Shown: positions 4,791-33,098 of the stretch, in pieces
Numbering within the stretch: the first letter of the stretch is position 1
Layout of the letters: every line of letters begins with the position of its first letter
Assembly (NCBI GenBank): GCA_021814695.1
Contig: JAKAHY010000008.1
Coordinates: 1 to 34,339, forward strand
Direction: 5' to 3'
Length of the DNA stretch: 34,339 nt
Source: a bacterium
GTDB lineage: Bacteria; Patescibacteriota; Minisyncoccia; UBA6257; JAGOQP01
Notes under the pieces: model-generated
The model's input: only the letters and a program-made list of their open reading frames with translations
Told to the model about the DNA's origin: nothing
The model's database searches: none
Translations under genes and position numbers: made by a program

Positions 4791-5726
4791 TTACTTTTTA
4801 AGCCTAAAGAAGGAATTGGGGCCACCGGTCCCTATCCGCTCTATAATACCCTTATCAACAAGCCTTTGGACGTCGTACCGGATGGTCCTTTCGCTGATTC
4901 CCGGCATGGATTGGATAACGTCTTTTATATGGCAGAGCGTCCGTTTGGAAAGAATCTTCACCAAAATCTCATTTCTCTCTTTAAAACCTATAGACGCCTC
5001 AAATCGGTTATTTCCGGGTGTTTTTGGCTGACTATCGGCCGACTGGCTCTTATTTTCATTCAGTTGAGCACTTGCCGGACTTTCTTGCCGGACTATTTCT
5101 TTGGATTTAGCATCCCTTGCCGGACTTTGATTTTGGCTGGGAGCCGGAGCATAAAATATCTCTTTTTTCTCAAAAACAGCTGCCGATTGAACCTCAGCTA
5201 TTGGAGTGGGGTTTGTTTTTGAAAATTGTTGAGGCTTGTCCTTGCCGGACTCTTGCCGGACTTGCTTGTTAACCTCCGGAACGTCTTTGGCTTCTTGGTT
5301 TAGAGGAGCCGAACCATCTGCCGGCTGTGATTTGTTTAGGGAATCGCTTATTGATCTGATTATCTCCGAAATCCTCATCGGCGGACGGGAAAATGACTCC
5401 TCTATATTTGGAGCGGTTTCGGGATTTTTTGCCGATTCAATCATCCGCATCTTGCAGTCATTGAGTTCCAATATCGCCGAACGCAAATTCCCTATTTCCC
5501 GAAGGATAACCGAGGAGTTGACCTTATTGATGTCTTTTACCTGAGCGCCAAGCCGAACCATTTCCTCAAGCCCGTCTAAAGACGCCAAATCTTTGGAAGC
5601 CAGGTAATCCACAGCCTTGTCCTCCAGGACCTGTTTTATTTTGAGGCGGGTGGCGTGTTCAGCAACGCGAAATACGGCCCACACGACCTCAAACGATCTT
5701 TGAACGAAAAATTCCTGGCTGAACAT
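4791..5726 (-). CDS. Winged-helix/DeoR-like HTH protein with long disordered linker
   Basis: 311 aa. C-terminal wHTH: FKERNEILVKILSKRTLCHIKDVIQSMPGISERTIRYDVQRLVDKGIIERIGTGGPNSFFRLKK. Helical N-terminus; Pro/Ser/Gln/Lys-rich middle. Confidence 0.75.
   Translation of the reverse strand: MFSQEFFVQRSFEVVWAVFRVAEHATRLKIKQVLEDKAVDYLASKDLASLDGLEEMVRLGAQVKDINKVNSSVILREIGNLRSAILELNDCKMRMIESAKNPETAPNIEESFSRPPMRISEIIRSISDSLNKSQPADGSAPLNQEAKDVPEVNKQVRQESGKDKPQQFSKTNPTPIAEVQSAAVFEKKEIFYAPAPSQNQSPARDAKSKEIVRQESPASAQLNENKSQSADSQPKTPGNNRFEASIGFKERNEILVKILSKRTLCHIKDVIQSMPGISERTIRYDVQRLVDKGIIERIGTGGPNSFFRLKK
5071..5262. repeat. Five exact copies of the 11-mer CTTGCCGGACT inside the wHTH linker
   Basis: Copies at 5071-5081, 5084-5094, 5116-5126, 5241-5251 and 5252-5262 (the last two in direct tandem). 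Confidence 0.85.
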
Positions 5727-5795: not shown

Positions 5796-5837
5796 TTTGT
5801 CCAGGTTATTTCACGATCGTGAAATAACCTGGACAAA
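5796..5837. repeat. Long perfect palindrome copy 1 (42 bp)
   Basis: TTTGTCCAGGTTATTTCACGATCGTGAAATAACCTGGACAAA, perfect about 5816.5. Confidence 0.97.
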
Positions 5838-5989
5838 GTACTTATCCACACAAATCAAAAGAAATCCAATGCCATGATTGTTATAATTAAATTAATCAGA
5901 TAAATCTCAGAAAATGACCTCACTTATAACAAAAATAAGTTGTGCCGTAATTTCATCCGAAATATCTATCACACAGACTTTTTAACCAC

Positions 5990-6017
5990 CCACCGTCCCG
6001 TCCGACGGTGGTTTTAT
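5990..6017 (+). terminator. Terminator-like hairpin in the leader upstream of the 6038 gene (possible attenuator or short RNA end)
   Basis: CCACCGTC-CCGTCC-GACGGTGG-TTTTATTATT; lies between an extended -10 (TGTTATAAT, near 5880) and the 6038 start. Confidence 0.6.
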
Positions 6018-6037
6018 TATTAATATTCATTTTGCAC

Positions 6038-6625
6038 ATGGACGATATCTCAGGCTATAAAATTAAAGACGATTCCGAGGACAACTCCCCCGACTCTCTT
6101 CCGCCAAAGATGAATAAAAAACGCTTATTTAAATTTACCCTTATTTTTGTCGGGATTATGATTTTGATCGGAGGTGGATATCTGGTTTGGAATAATTATC
6201 TAAGCCCATCGGCTCAATTTGCCCGCAGGGCGGCTGCAAACTATCAAAAATACCTCGACCAGCAGAGCAAGTACGAAGCGGCGATGACTGCTGATGCTTA
6301 TGGCGGCCAAACTCCGGAAGAGACCATATCTATGTTCAAAGAGGCTCTTATAAAAAAGGACGTTGAATTGGCCAGTAATTATTTTTTGCTGGACGAAGAC
6401 GGAGAAAAGAATCCGTTGATAAAACAAAATCTGCAGAAACTTTTTGACAACAACCAGATACAAAAAGTGCTTGATGTAATAAATAATTTAAAACCATCAC
6501 AGCGTGACACCGGAGATGGCGGGTTAAAAGAATTTGTAGTCTTGACCCAACAAGGATTTGTAGACTATTCAATGACATTAAAACTCAATAAATACTCAAA
6601 CGTATGGAAAATAGAAAGTTTGTAA
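6038..6625 (+). CDS. Hypothetical single-TM membrane-anchored protein
   Basis: ORF 6008-6625, probable start MDDISGYKIKDD at 6038. TM helix FKFTLIFVGIMILIGGGYLVW; soluble C-terminal domain. Overlaps the start of the next gene. Confidence 0.7.
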   Translation: MDDISGYKIKDDSEDNSPDSLPPKMNKKRLFKFTLIFVGIMILIGGGYLVWNNYLSPSAQFARRAAANYQKYLDQQSKYEAAMTADAYGGQTPEETISMFKEALIKKDVELASNYFLLDEDGEKNPLIKQNLQKLFDNNQIQKVLDVINNLKPSQRDTGDGGLKEFVVLTQQGFVDYSMTLKLNKYSNVWKIESL

Positions 6626-9600
6626 TATTTTTGGCCCCGGTAATCGCACTGGGGCTTTTTCTTGCCTGGCCGAAAATAAGCTTGGGATATGATACCGGAA
6701 CTCACGAGTTTTTGACCGATACAGCAATCCGACTTTATGACAAAAATTATCCCCAAAATAAAATAGATTCGGCTTTAAATTCATTTGTTTTGGATGGAAC
6801 AAGGAGAGAGGACGACCCTCCCCGGTGGATGAACCATTTTTATGACCCCGTTTATGAACGGGGACTTAGCCAGGATAATGCAATTGACCCTCTATATAAA
6901 CTTGGTAACTGGCAGGAATCAAAGCTTTGGGCGCAGGATGGGACAAACCAAAATAATATAAAATATTCTCCTATAATCGCGACAATACTTTCTTCAATTC
7001 AATCGGGAAAGATAGAAAAATTCTTTCCGACAGCTGATTTTACCTGGAACGAAGCTCTCCGTTATTGGATCCAGGGCGATAAGGAGATGGCAATGTTTAC
7101 CCTGGGCCACATTTTGCATTTAGTTCAGGATGTTTCAGTCCCGGACCATACCCGAAACGACCCCCATCCGGGAGATAGTCCTTATGAAAATTATTCGGCT
7201 CAATATACCCTTTCCAACCCCGATAACGATCTGTCTCAATCTGTATCCAAAAACCCCCTTGTTTCTCTTTCCGATTTAAATTCATATTTTGTTCAACTGG
7301 CAAATTATTCCAATAATAATTTCTACAGCAAAGACACTATAGGAATACAAAGCGGCTATTCTTCGCCTAGCTCAGAAGAGTATAATCCCGTAAATATTAA
7401 TGGTCAGATGGAATACTATGGTTTGAAAAAAGATAATTTAGGCAATGAATATCTATTGGTATTAAAAAAATCTCTCAATAATAATTTGGTAGTAACAAAT
7501 AATAACGATGTCATTATTGATGATGGAAAGATAGAGTATGACTACTGGAGACTCCTTTCTCCAAAAGCAGTTGAATACAGCGCCGGAGTAATAAATCTCT
7601 TTTTTCAAGACGTTGAAAAAAATAAAAATAATCCCGAATTTACACAAAAAGAAAAACCTTCTTTTTTGGGACAAGTTACCCAAACAGTTCAAAACGGATA
7701 CAATGCGGCGAAAAATTTTGTATTAGGAGTTTTTGGATCCGGACAATTTGAGCCGATAGCAGAAGTCAATGTTAACAACCCGGCCGATACCTCAAACGCC
7801 GACCAAAACACAAATCAGGGAAACAGTGCGATCACGTCGGAGAATCCACAACCAAACGGCCAAAATAATATCAGCGGAAATAAAACCGAAAAAACATACA
7901 AAGTAACCAGAGTGATTGACGGCGATACGATAGTTTTGGAAAACGGAACCGTTGTGCGCTATATCGGAATTGACGCTCCGGAACTTTCCGATACCGAAAG
8001 CAAAAGCGATTGCCTGGCAAAAGAGGCCCGGGAGAGAAACAAACAATTAGTGCTCAGTAAAGAAGTCCGGCTGGAATCTGGTCCGCAAAAAACCGATAAA
8101 TATGACCGAACTCTGGCCTATGTTTGGGTCCAGAATATAGACGCCAATGCCGTCCTTATAAAAGAAGGGTTCGCTTATGCCTATAATTTCAAAAATGCCC
8201 ATCCAAGAGAAGACGAGTTTGCCGAGCTCCAAGAAGAGGCCAAGAATGCAAAAGCTGGTATTTGGGGAGAATCCTGTGCCGCCTCGTCCACCAATAAAAG
8301 CAACAAAACATCAACCAGCACTCAAAGTGAGCCGCCCAAAACAACTGATCCCGCTAAACCCGTGGCATGTTTGTATTCAACAACTCAGCCCCCATCCCAT
8401 TCCGGAATTCAGATAAACGAAGTTGCTTGGATGGGTTCGGCAAATAGCGCCAGTGACGAGTGGATTGAGCTCAAAAATACCTCAAGCTCGGAAGTGAATC
8501 TTTCCGGATACTGGCTTATCGGCAGAGATAATCAGATAGAAATAAATTTAAGCAGCGGAAGCTCCACATCAATTGGGCCTTCGGCATTTTATTTGCTTGA
8601 GAGAAGCAACAATGAGTCCGTTCCCGGAGTCACGGCTGATATTATTTATTCGGGATCGCTAGGAAACTCAAATGAGGGGCTCAGATTATTTTCTCCAGGA
8701 TGTATCCTTGTCGATGAAGTTTTGGCATCATCCTCATGGCCAGCTGGAGATAATGCTACGAAAAAGACGATGGAAAGGGACCGACAAGGCTTTGGCTGGC
8801 ACTCATCGCTTGGAGCTGGTGGAACACCAAAACAAGAGAATTCAATTCCATCAGGAATCACTTGGACCGGGAGTGGCGGTGGATACACGTCCCAAACTAA
8901 TTCTGCGGCGTTATCTACCGCCTCTTCGTCTGATACCACTCCACAATTCTTTCCCGTTGCAATCAATGAAATAATGTATAACCCGGAAGGTACCGACACA
9001 AACCGAGAATGGATAGAAATCCTAAACACCGCATCAACATCTGTAGATATTTCCGAATGGAGACTTTTTGAGAATGACACCGCTCATAGACTAAATTTAA
9101 TCTCGGGAAATTTTGTGTTGCAACCCGGAGAATTTGCCATAATTGCCGATGATGGAGATCAGTTTAAAATTGATTATCCTTTTTTTTCGGGAAATCTATT
9201 TGATAGTTCATTCTCATTAAATAATGAAGGTGAGGTAATTTCTTTAAAAAACGGGGATCTGAAAATTGACGAAATTTCATACTCGCCTTCCGGCGGCGCC
9301 GATGGTAACGGAAAATCGCTTCAGAAATTTTCCGATAACTGGGAAGAGTCACTGCCCACTCCCGGAAAAGAAAATTTAATTGATGCCTCAACCGACCGCT
9401 TTTCACATGCCCCATCACATTTATTAATAAGCGAAATTCAGGTTGATGGCGAAGGTCCGGATGATGAATTTGTTGAAATTTATAACCCAACACTAAATCC
9501 CATTTCGCTTTCGGATTATTCGATCCAGTATATTAGCGGCAAAGCTACAACAACAAAGAATGTTTATAAAAAAATAATTGATGCTCCATTAACCGTCGCT

Positions 9601-11679
9601 CCTTTTGGTTTTGCTCTTTTTGCAAATAAAGCTGGAATTTTCTCTCAAAATTCAGATGTAAATTATTCATTTTCTCTATCCGGAGAATCCTCCGGTGGTA
9701 TAATTTTGCTTTCAAATTCTTCCGGAACAATAGAATCGCTGAATCAGAATGAAATAGTCGATTTAGTTGCATATGGAAACACGGAAATGCCCGGAATTAC
9801 TAAAGCTATAAAACCGGAAAATAACCAAAGCATCGAGCGTAAGGCATTAAGTAATGACTACTGCACCTCTTCTCAAAATAAAGGAGAGTTTCTGGGAAAT
9901 GCCTGCGACACAAATGATAACGAATACGACTTTGAATTACGTTTAAATCCCCGCAGACAAGGACTATCCAACCTTGCTGAACCCAGAACAGCTCCAAATC
10001 CGGCTCAAAACCTTTCTATTTCATATGCTCCTGGATCAACTAATATTTCAGCCTCATGGCAGGCTCCAGCCGAAAATGGCGCCTTTGGACCATTCACCTA
10101 CAAAATAATTGATTCCGATACCGATACTGTATTAGCAACAACTACCGCGCTCACAAATGAAACTTTAATTGATGAAGTCGGGAGAGATTATGCTATTGCA
10201 CTGACAGCTGCCGACAAAGAAGGATTGGAATCGCTGACAGCCACCAGCTCAATAACAGTCCCTAGTTACATAAAATCACTGAGTATATTCAAAAATCCCC
10301 AAAGTTCAAACGATTACGTATTGGAAGGAAGTTATGATCAGCTACCACTGATTTCCAATCCGAATGCAAACGGAGATATCCTCGTATTTTTTATAAACAA
10401 AGATGCCCCAAAAGAACCCAGCCTTGCGGGAGGCTATCCTTCAGGAGAATCTAGAGACGGACTGATTCAAGCCGACTATCGCCATTGTTCCGGAATTTCC
10501 GGAAGCCGTGATTTTTTGGCATTAACACAAAATCCTTGTCCCCAGGGAGGAATGATGACCGAAGCGCTACCGCAAGAGTATCTGGAGGATAAAATATTTT
10601 CCCTAAAAATTTCTCCGGAGAGCTCTTTAGTCTCATCGGATTATTTCACGATAGCATTCTATACGTTTGAACATTCCAATTTGTGGAGTGGAGGAACCGA
10701 TATTTACCGGATAGCGGCGGTCGATAAAACAAAATATTATTTTAGCGATATTACTCCTACACACTCATCTCCGATTCAAATCCAAAATTTTACTGCCGAA
10801 CTTCACGAACAGGATTCGACAAACAATTCCTATGCTCTGCTTAAATGGGATGACACGACCGATGCCGACAGCATCGATAAGTCTCTAATGTACGAATACA
10901 ATATTTCAAAAAATAATACCTCGCTAGATGACAGCGGGTGGATAGAAATTAAAAGAGAACTCGCTCAAACATCCGATGGACAAGGAGGGGTGACAACAAC
11001 TCAGATCGGACCGCAAATCCCCTTGCTGGAATCCGGCAATTACACTTTTTATCTGCGTGCTAAAGACGAGCTGGGACTCACATCGACGTCTTCAACTTCA
11101 ACCGTAGAAATTATTATTCCTAGTTTTATTACCGGAATTCAAGATGAGACTTGCAACTACTGTAACACAACAAATTTTGCCACCATTCAGGGATCGGCAA
11201 ATCCTTATATGGCAGGCCAAGTATTCACCCTGCAATCTCCAACTAAAATAAGCGAAATTCAGATAGAGCTTCACAACTTCGCTGCGCCAAGCGATATGAA
11301 TATCCCGCCATCAAACTTTGACGCAAAAATATCCATCAATTCCATGGACGACTCAAGTGATCCCAATGTTGGACTTCAGGAGATATTTTCAACAAACGTC
11401 ACAAATCTTCCGGCGCTGACGTTTCCAAACAAAAACTATACAACCGTCAAAATTCCGTCTCCAGTAAATCTGCAACCGGGAACTTATTTTATAAAATTAG
11501 AAACAATTGGAGGCTCCCTAAGTCATCCCTCACAAGGAATTGCTTTTTCAACGGTGGGATCGGACAAATATTCACAAGGACGGGCATATTTTGTCTATTC
11601 TACGGCCGAATATCCGCCTTCTTTATGGTCCCCGGTAGAGCTAAATATGTATTTCCGAATATTTGGCGCCAGTCAGTGA
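6604..11679 (+). CDS. Giant secreted multidomain protein: zinc-dependent phospholipase C/S1-P1-like, thermonuclease (SNase), three lamin-tail (LTD) domains, fibronectin-like region
   Basis: 1691 aa. Signal/TM; GYDTGTHEFLTDTAIRLYD..ILHLVQDVSVPDHTRND (PLC-like His/Asp pattern); YKVTRVIDGDTIVLENGTVVRYIGIDAPELSD..DKYDRTLAYVWV..YAYNF..ELQEEAKNAKAGIWGE (SNase). LTD motifs: IQINEVAWMGSANSASDEWIELKN, VAINEIMYNPEGTDTNREWIEILN, LLISEIQVDGEGPDDEFVEIYN. Confidence 0.85.
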   Translation: MENRKFVIFLAPVIALGLFLAWPKISLGYDTGTHEFLTDTAIRLYDKNYPQNKIDSALNSFVLDGTRREDDPPRWMNHFYDPVYERGLSQDNAIDPLYKLGNWQESKLWAQDGTNQNNIKYSPIIATILSSIQSGKIEKFFPTADFTWNEALRYWIQGDKEMAMFTLGHILHLVQDVSVPDHTRNDPHPGDSPYENYSAQYTLSNPDNDLSQSVSKNPLVSLSDLNSYFVQLANYSNNNFYSKDTIGIQSGYSSPSSEEYNPVNINGQMEYYGLKKDNLGNEYLLVLKKSLNNNLVVTNNNDVIIDDGKIEYDYWRLLSPKAVEYSAGVINLFFQDVEKNKNNPEFTQKEKPSFLGQVTQTVQNGYNAAKNFVLGVFGSGQFEPIAEVNVNNPADTSNADQNTNQGNSAITSENPQPNGQNNISGNKTEKTYKVTRVIDGDTIVLENGTVVRYIGIDAPELSDTESKSDCLAKEARERNKQLVLSKEVRLESGPQKTDKYDRTLAYVWVQNIDANAVLIKEGFAYAYNFKNAHPREDEFAELQEEAKNAKAGIWGESCAASSTNKSNKTSTSTQSEPPKTTDPAKPVACLYSTTQPPSHSGIQINEVAWMGSANSASDEWIELKNTSSSEVNLSGYWLIGRDNQIEINLSSGSSTSIGPSAFYLLERSNNESVPGVTADIIYSGSLGNSNEGLRLFSPGCILVDEVLASSSWPAGDNATKKTMERDRQGFGWHSSLGAGGTPKQENSIPSGITWTGSGGGYTSQTNSAALSTASSSDTTPQFFPVAINEIMYNPEGTDTNREWIEILNTASTSVDISEWRLFENDTAHRLNLISGNFVLQPGEFAIIADDGDQFKIDYPFFSGNLFDSSFSLNNEGEVISLKNGDLKIDEISYSPSGGADGNGKSLQKFSDNWEESLPTPGKENLIDASTDRFSHAPSHLLISEIQVDGEGPDDEFVEIYNPTLNPISLSDYSIQYISGKATTTKNVYKKIIDAPLTVAPFGFALFANKAGIFSQNSDVNYSFSLSGESSGGIILLSNSSGTIESLNQNEIVDLVAYGNTEMPGITKAIKPENNQSIERKALSNDYCTSSQNKGEFLGNACDTNDNEYDFELRLNPRRQGLSNLAEPRTAPNPAQNLSISYAPGSTNISASWQAPAENGAFGPFTYKIIDSDTDTVLATTTALTNETLIDEVGRDYAIALTAADKEGLESLTATSSITVPSYIKSLSIFKNPQSSNDYVLEGSYDQLPLISNPNANGDILVFFINKDAPKEPSLAGGYPSGESRDGLIQADYRHCSGISGSRDFLALTQNPCPQGGMMTEALPQEYLEDKIFSLKISPESSLVSSDYFTIAFYTFEHSNLWSGGTDIYRIAAVDKTKYYFSDITPTHSSPIQIQNFTAELHEQDSTNNSYALLKWDDTTDADSIDKSLMYEYNISKNNTSLDDSGWIEIKRELAQTSDGQGGVTTTQIGPQIPLLESGNYTFYLRAKDELGLTSTSSTSTVEIIIPSFITGIQDETCNYCNTTNFATIQGSANPYMAGQVFTLQSPTKISEIQIELHNFAAPSDMNIPPSNFDAKISINSMDDSSDPNVGLQEIFSTNVTNLPALTFPNKNYTTVKIPSPVNLQPGTYFIKLETIGGSLSHPSQGIAFSTVGSDKYSQGRAYFVYSTAEYPPSLWSPVELNMYFRIFGASQ

Positions 11680-11698
11680 TTAAAAAGCTGACTTATCT

Positions 11699-11738
11699 AT
11701 GTCCAGGTTATTTCACGATCGTGAAATAACCTGGACAT
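11699..11738. repeat. Long perfect palindrome copy 2 (40 bp)
   Basis: ATGTCCAGGTTATTTCACGATCGTGAAATAACCTGGACAT; identical 38-bp core to copies 1 and 3. Confidence 0.97.
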
Positions 11739-11805
11739 GACTAGAAATTAATTAAGATACTAAAAGTCGATAAATTATCATTAAAAATTAATCACTTGGA
11801 TAAAA

Positions 11806-12396
11806 ATGAAGAGAAAAAGAAACCATAAATATCTGCTACTCGAGGCTCTTTCGGAAGCAGCAGGAGAGACAATGGATTTTGCTACAGCTTTTATTTGTGC
11901 TGGGTATGGAGCATCGATGAGAAATTTGGAAATTACCAGAGATAAAATCAGCAGTAAAAATTTTAAATTAAAACAAGAACAAGAAAAAACCAGGGCTTCA
12001 AAAAAATGCCTTTATGAGCTGGTAGCTGATATGAAAAAAGATGGTCTTATCGAAAAGAACGGGTTAGGTAGAAAAAAATTGATCACATTAACACGGACTG
12101 GAAAAGAAAAAGTAAATAACGGCGACATCAAAAAACCAAGCACTTCTTACACGAAAGAAGTCAGTAAAGAGCCAATTATTTTTGTATTTGATATTCCGGA
12201 AAAAGAGAGGAAAAAGAGGGATTGGCTCAGAAGATCGTTGAATCATTTAGGATTTCATATGATCCAAAAAAGTGTCTGGATTGGATCCGTTAGATTACCG
12301 AAGGTTTTTCTTAGTGATTTGAGCGAACAAAATTTAATATCATATGTTGAAATTCTCTCGATTAATAAATCCGGGACTATCAAAAACGTATTGTAG
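11806..12396 (+). CDS. PaaX-like regulator with wHTH and Cas2-like ferredoxin-fold C-terminal domain
   Basis: 196 aa. HTH-like LYELVADMKKDGLIEKNGLGRKKLITLTRTGKEKV followed by EPIIFVFDIPEKERKKRDWLRRSLNHLGFHMIQKSVWIGS, a PaaX-C/Cas2-like core. Confidence 0.7.
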   Translation: MKRKRNHKYLLLEALSEAAGETMDFATAFICAGYGASMRNLEITRDKISSKNFKLKQEQEKTRASKKCLYELVADMKKDGLIEKNGLGRKKLITLTRTGKEKVNNGDIKKPSTSYTKEVSKEPIIFVFDIPEKERKKRDWLRRSLNHLGFHMIQKSVWIGSVRLPKVFLSDLSEQNLISYVEILSINKSGTIKNVL

Positions 12397-12418
12397 TTAG
12401 ATTTATTTATAGAAGTCT

Positions 12419-12460
12419 TTTGTCCAGGTTATTTCACGATCGTGAAATAACCTGGACAAA
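12419..12460. repeat. Long perfect palindrome copy 3 (42 bp)
   Basis: TTTGTCCAGGTTATTTCACGATCGTGAAATAACCTGGACAAA; identical to copy 1. Confidence 0.97.
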
Positions 12461-33058: not shown

Positions 33059-33098
33059 TTGTCCATGTTAATTCACGATCGTGAATTAACATGGACAA
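33059..33098. repeat. Long perfect palindrome copy 4 (40 bp, variant with mirrored substitutions)
   Basis: TTGTCCATGTTAATTCACGATCGTGAATTAACATGGACAA; same CACGATCGTG centre and GTCCA/TGGAC arms as copies 1-3. Confidence 0.97.

Follow-up and report, generated by a model that had tools for sequence, protein, structure and literature searches.

A winged-helix/Cas2-fold gene bracketed by long palindromes: a candidate gene-plus-recognition-site unit in a Patescibacteriota genome

Background

A REPtron consists of a gene for a TnpA-REP protein (RAYT), which is resident and non-mobile, and the cognate repetitive extragenic palindromes (REPs) dispersed in the same genome; the protein and its palindromes co-evolve (PMC8266576, PMC2817692). 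It is the closest working analogue of the locus described here, a unit at positions 11699-12460 of contig JAKAHY010000008.1, in which a gene for a winged-helix/Cas2-fold protein stands between two long palindromes. The window, that is, the whole stretch of 34,339 nt that was analysed, is contig 1 of a 748-kb, 99%-complete genome in 16 contigs (G000 hereafter). We read the unit as a resident one whose palindromes are recognised by its own protein, with autoregulation and rare dispersal, and put the probability of this reading at about 0.5. It looks like an undescribed gene-plus-recognition-site system behind routine "Cas2" labels; no description of such gene-plus-palindrome units was found in open-licence papers.

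Results

The unit and the palindromes of the window

The gene and the palindromes considered here are as follows.

11806-12396, + strand: gene of the unit, encoding a 196-aa winged-helix plus Cas2-fold protein (PaaX_M PF20803 and Cas2 models)
11699-11738: P2, 40 bp, perfect and loop-free, centre at 11718/11719; left palindrome of the unit
12419-12460: P3, 42 bp, perfect and loop-free; right palindrome of the unit, in a convergent intergenic gap
5796-5837: P1, 42 bp, perfect and loop-free; solo extra copy in the divergent gap upstream of a nuclease operon
33059-33098: P4, 40 bp, perfect and loop-free; solo variant centred 25 bp after a gene for a XerC/D-type recombinase

The identical palindromes that an earlier sequence-only reading had noticed at P1, P2 and P3 are real, and the three share the same central 38 bp. 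P4 differs from them by two substitutions per arm, each mirrored in the other arm, and its symmetry is still perfect. By chance, 19 paired positions would be expected anywhere in 34 kb with a probability of about 1e-7 (0.25^19 x 34,339). The G000 palindrome has 8 copies in the genome, while a reversed-pattern control gave 0; the four copies outside the window lie on contigs C3, where one central position is mismatched, C4, C7 and C14, whose copy carries a symmetric change. The intervals given earlier for the operon (6008/6038-11679) and for the gene (11806-12396) agree with our re-analysis.

Palindromes bracket the gene family across relatives

The homologues comprised PF20803 genes from 60 relatives and G000 together with a second set of 41, making 112 in total. 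A palindrome was called when a loop-free one with a score of at least 11 lay in the gene flank, and same-sized windows around 202 other genes from the same loci served as control. The results showed that a long loop-free palindrome flanks 96 of the 112 homologues in the order on at least one side, compared with 32 of the 202 control genes (Fisher p ~1e-35), and that both flanks carry one in 75/112 homologues against 5/202 controls (Fisher p ~1e-37). The tie between the palindromes and the PaaX/Cas2-like gene, as suspected from the window, therefore extends to the family. In a relaxed search, more than 12 units that had been scored as one-sided proved to have a degenerate mate of their palindrome on the opposite side. 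The left copy has its centre a median of 51 bp upstream of the start codon; for the right copy, the median is 47 bp past the stop. The association is weaker in the wider phylum, where a palindrome was found beside 14 of the 29 top-scoring homologues.

Among the genomes sampled, 137 of 244 in the order and 122 of 380 in the phylum carry the gene family; some relatives have up to 14 family members, and several different units may share one genome. Beside one unit, at a contig end (L077:3592-3733, the end of G054 C3), there is a 142-bp perfect palindrome, which may be an assembly artefact or a hairpin-like end.

Each unit has its own palindrome

The left and right copies of one unit have a median identity of 92%, whereas copies of different units have 39%. 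The G000 palindrome occurs in 1 of 61 genomes, i.e. in none of the 60 relatives. A second palindrome, GTCAAGTATCTCACGATCGTGAGATACTTGAC, is present in G001, G002, G003 and G009, at 3-7 copies per genome; these four are precisely the carriers of the cognate gene among the 10 genomes searched. A third is present in G234 (3 copies) and G235 (4 copies) and absent from G232 and G233. The exact palindromes tested are thus confined to genomes with the cognate gene, at 3-8 copies each, with G004, a former carrier of such a gene, as a partial exception. G004 retains 8 copies of its own palindrome, and the stretches read there gave only a truncated winged helix-turn-helix (wHTH) homologue without the Cas2 domain, located directly after the orthologous nuclease operon (L114:13436-13858), and a PaaX-like gene that is not bracketed. 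Conversely, G005 has kept the syntenic gene and lacks the palindromes. The expectation that genomes bearing a palindrome always carry the gene was borne out for the palindromes tested and failed in G004; given G004 and G005, the link between gene and palindrome is not absolute.

Other repeated palindromes were seen as well. One with the centre AATATT, ATCACGGTTTCAATATTGAAACCGTGAT, has several copies in G001 (L108:12475; L124:716, 1420 and 6160), and another, AACGCGATTAATTAATCGCGTT, is common to G002 and G001 (L109:7804; L124:6252).

The arms change together

A symmetry profile was drawn from 171 palindromes. Counted outwards from the centre, positions 1-18 pair at 0.87-1.00, after which pairing falls to 0.78, 0.61 and 0.43 and reaches 0.30 by position 24, so that the symmetry has faded by about 21 bp per arm. 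Features common across the palindromes are C/G at +/-3 (97%), A/T at 8-11, G/T at 13 and A/G at 15. Between left and right copies, 84 differences affected both arms and left them paired, 10 affected both arms and left them unpaired, and 76 affected one arm; the 94 both-arm differences compare with about 14 expected if the arms changed independently. Similarly, the outer arms differ between the copies in G004, yet are symmetric within most of them.

Mismatches between arms comprise 38 G-T and 32 A-C, and the lack of a G-T excess speaks against an RNA hairpin. In such a hairpin the central four bases would form the loop, yet they pair at 0.90-0.94, and this symmetry argues for recognition of the duplex. 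The relative orientation of left and right copies was uninformative, since shared asymmetries were 6 direct and 6 inverted. From these patterns in the sequences we infer that a symmetric dimer reads the palindrome as a duplex, and that an additional process keeps the arms matched; this would be selection for symmetry or else the correction of quasi-palindromes by template switching, which is known as a mutational process.

The protein combines a winged helix with a Cas2 fold

The 196-aa protein scored 50.9 bits against PaaX_M PF20803 (cut-off 24), 24.9 bits against Cas2 PF09827 (cut-off 23.8) and 27.6 against the NCBIfam cas2 model TIGR01573 (cut-off 24.5), and only 20.4 bits against the full-length PaaX equivalog TIGR02277, far under its cut-off of 264.55. 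Because it exceeds the NCBIfam cas2 cut-off, an automatic pipeline would probably name it Cas2. Of five solitary wHTH-Cas2 proteins of the family tested, three score above that cut-off, so "Cas2" annotations without Cas1 in the phylum may often belong to the wHTH-Cas2 family. Such naming of at least some of these genes would hide the family.

Asp129 and Ser156 are invariant across the 112 homologues and Arg138/Arg142 nearly so; these residues fall on the conserved Cas2-fold motif, and on this basis the protein may act as a nuclease or in strand processing. A fold search with a weak two-sequence AlphaFold model gave Cas2 structures and E. coli PaaX as the best PDB matches, while a sequence search of the PDB with the protein gave no relatives. 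The protein has no Pfam match to Y1 transposases, and a HuH-like motif occurs in 5 of the 112 homologues and is not conserved. The window contains no CRISPR array-like repeats, and a Pfam scan of 19 window proteins, which did not extend to smaller ORFs, gave neither Cas1 nor other cas genes.

Promoter overlap and neighbours of the sites

Promoter-like scores at the left copies were 8.57, against 7.71 for shuffled sequences, and those at the right copies were 7.33 against 7.54. In 14 of the 15 strong promoter cases the -35 element starts no more than 18 bp from the palindrome centre. In the unit itself, the TGGACA at the right edge of P2 could provide the gene with a weak -35 (9/12 overall). 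The overlap of left copies with promoters supports autorepression, which does not explain the right copies and the solo copies. The right copies face convergent and tandem neighbours equally often (35 v 35); many palindromes, often including solos, sit just past gene 3' ends; and several solos, such as that of G235 C6, occupy convergent gaps, where no promoter is available for control. The neighbours of solo sites, among them genes for tRNA synthetases, GAPDH, ribosomal L25 and ABC transporters as well as ftsA and ftsX, have no common function.

Two solo sites have particular surroundings. At L118:7177-7206 in G000, a strong sigma-70-like promoter (11/12) begins right at the palindrome edge, and in G001 C16, near 4112 (L141), a solo palindrome lies about 25 bp after an apparent tRNA 3' end.

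The gene is inherited vertically and the solo copies vary

Every pair of closely related units keeps both flanks, which are syntenic across genera, often with different arms. Six genera of one family-level group (G062, G063, G065, G070, G071 and G073) hold the unit, and most pairs among them share both flanks with arms that are largely different. We looked for closely related units with unrelated flanks and found none, nor were relatives of the family found among 2.9 million viral contigs. The gene is thus vertically inherited, and the mobile cassette proposed by the sequence-only reading is not supported; the variable part is the solo palindromes.

Solo copies are known in G000, G001, G002, G003, G009, G234 and G235, and extra copies lie within a few kb of other units too, not only at P1. 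Overall, their positions are not conserved. P1 is missing from the orthologous gap in the genus mates G001 and G002; the G235 C6 solo, in a convergent gap of 103 bp, is missing from G232 and G233; and G002 lacks the G001 C23 solo.

The nuclease operon is not part of the unit

The operon at 6008/6038-11679 encodes LTD and SNase domains, and together with its upstream neighbour it is syntenic in G001, G002, G004 and G005. It had been described as a module bounded by P1 and P2. However, it occupies the same place in genus mates without either palindrome, and comparison of the syntenic loci showed that its gene order persists palindrome-free in G001, G002 and G005; the operon as a palindrome-bounded module was therefore rejected. 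The genetic unit is P2-gene-P3 (11699-12460), and the best reading of P1 is a nearby solo copy. By coincidence, the divergent gap holds a palindrome in G004 too, a different one specific to that genome, and the truncated homologue of G004 follows its copy of this operon. Window 4791-5726 encodes a 311-aa protein with a C-terminal DeoR-like HTH; in the relatives that were read, its gene adjoins the operon divergently.

Discussion

In the reading that we favour, the protein would bind its own palindrome as duplex DNA in the form of a symmetric dimer; the C/G at +/-3, the A/T-rich 8-11 and K13/R15 would fit contacts by the helix and the wing at a spacing of roughly one helical turn. At the left copy, where promoter-like -35 hexamers overlap the palindrome, binding would repress the gene's own promoter. 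In the weakest step, the protein with its invariant Asp and Ser may occasionally copy the palindrome to new extragenic sites and keep arms and copies matched; alternatively, repair of DNA that the protein has marked or cut might do both. TnpA-REP/REP systems are thought to act in this way. A stronger version would be a new class of DNA-processing system in the phylum, in which a solitary Cas2-fold enzyme with a winged helix, using neither Cas1 nor HuH chemistry, recognises, copies and keeps symmetric its 36-38 bp palindromes; this Cas2-based counterpart of REP dispersal or transposition seems to us distinctly unlikely.

Several observations weigh against the favoured reading. There are only about 1-6 solo copies per genome, far below the numbers of REPs. 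Intergenic DNA is too diverged for an empty site or a target duplication to be resolved to the base; when G235 C6 was compared with G232/G233 and G001 C23 with G002, gene content or long stretches differed too, so that a clean insertion was not seen. A number of solo sites have been kept across species or genera, a pattern that fits ordinary operators too: beside recG in G001 C4/G002 C10 (L140, L143), beside rmuC in G003 C8/G009 C1 (L145, L147; with groES on the other side in G003) and beside an ABC-transporter gene in G234/G235. The paired changes could stem from replication template switching in which the protein plays no role, and the AlphaFold model of the protein is of low confidence (pLDDT 59.8).

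The protein may be a plain regulator, an autorepressor that has the flanking palindromes as its operators, which might work by looping across the gene, and the solos as a small regulon. We consider this somewhat unlikely, although the wHTH plus PaaX_M architecture, the -35s overlapped by the left copy, the solo that abuts a strong promoter (L118 7177-7206), the conserved solos upstream of genes such as recG, and the position of P1 between divergent genes, in a gap where G004 has its own palindrome, all agree with it. It accounts poorly for a right copy about 47 bp past the stop that faces convergent neighbours as frequently as tandem ones, for solos in promoterless convergent gaps such as the 103-bp gap of G235 C6, and for the lack of a common theme among solo neighbours; moreover, operators need no paired changes in both arms. 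That the palindromes are instead the ends of a transposon or cassette, with the Cas2-like protein as a recombinase moving palindrome-to-palindrome segments, is improbable: near-identical ends do bracket the gene as in IS200/IS605, genomes with up to 14 family members exist, the Asp and Ser of the Cas2 fold are invariant and solo copies are polymorphic, but close units retain both flanks, none appeared in the viral contigs, no target duplication or empty site was seen, and the operon is found without palindromes.

The sites might also organise the chromosome, the protein binding a handful of palindromes for structure or segregation, by a logic like that of Noc, SlmA or ParB, with two sites carried by the gene. 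Few, long, high-specificity, extragenic sites near unrelated housekeeping genes would suit this role; the patchy presence (137/244 genomes of the order), the several different units in one genome and the overall lack of positional conservation do not, and we hold it to be slightly more improbable still. It is highly improbable that the palindromes act once transcribed, as hairpins or terminators, or owe their spread to another enzyme, and lie near the gene for other reasons. Many do follow gene 3' ends closely, and their folding potential is strong (mean -13.9 kcal/mol with DNA parameters); against this, the mismatches have no G-U bias (38 GT v 32 AC), the would-be loop of four bases stays symmetric, and the palindromes are cognate between left and right and depend on the gene.

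If each protein has its private, perfectly symmetric site, the family would be a large natural collection of protein-DNA specificity pairs; an unexplained force would then keep palindromes of 36-38 bp symmetric, and Cas2-fold proteins would possibly have a non-CRISPR role in moving or marking DNA.

Comparison with known systems

As in a REPtron, the gene is bracketed by or adjoins its cognate palindromes (both sides in 75/112, at least one in 96/112), which are dispersed in extragenic DNA while the gene itself is syntenic. Unlike in a REPtron, the protein is a wHTH plus Cas2 fold in which a conserved HuH motif is absent, the sites are 36-38 bp, loop-free and fully symmetric, there is no GTAG-type foot tag and the flanks of the copies share nothing beyond the palindrome, and a genome has 3-8 copies, whereas REPs number in the hundreds. 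With IS200/IS605 the unit shares a small gene with palindromic ends; it differs in having no Y1 transposase and no evidence of movement, and the central symmetry of its palindromes suggests recognition of duplex rather than single-stranded DNA.

The PaaX repressors (PF20803/TIGR02277; E. coli PaaX 8a39) have the same combination of wHTH and Cas2-like domain, but the unit protein has about 196 aa against about 300, fails the TIGR02277 equivalog and is encoded between palindromes, and no phenylacetate genes were seen. The Cas2-fold domain with its invariant Asp is shared with CRISPR Cas2 and VapD, from both of which the fused wHTH sets the protein apart; unlike for CRISPR Cas2, no Cas1 or CRISPR protein was present among the other window proteins scanned. 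On this comparison, something categorically new is the less probable reading.

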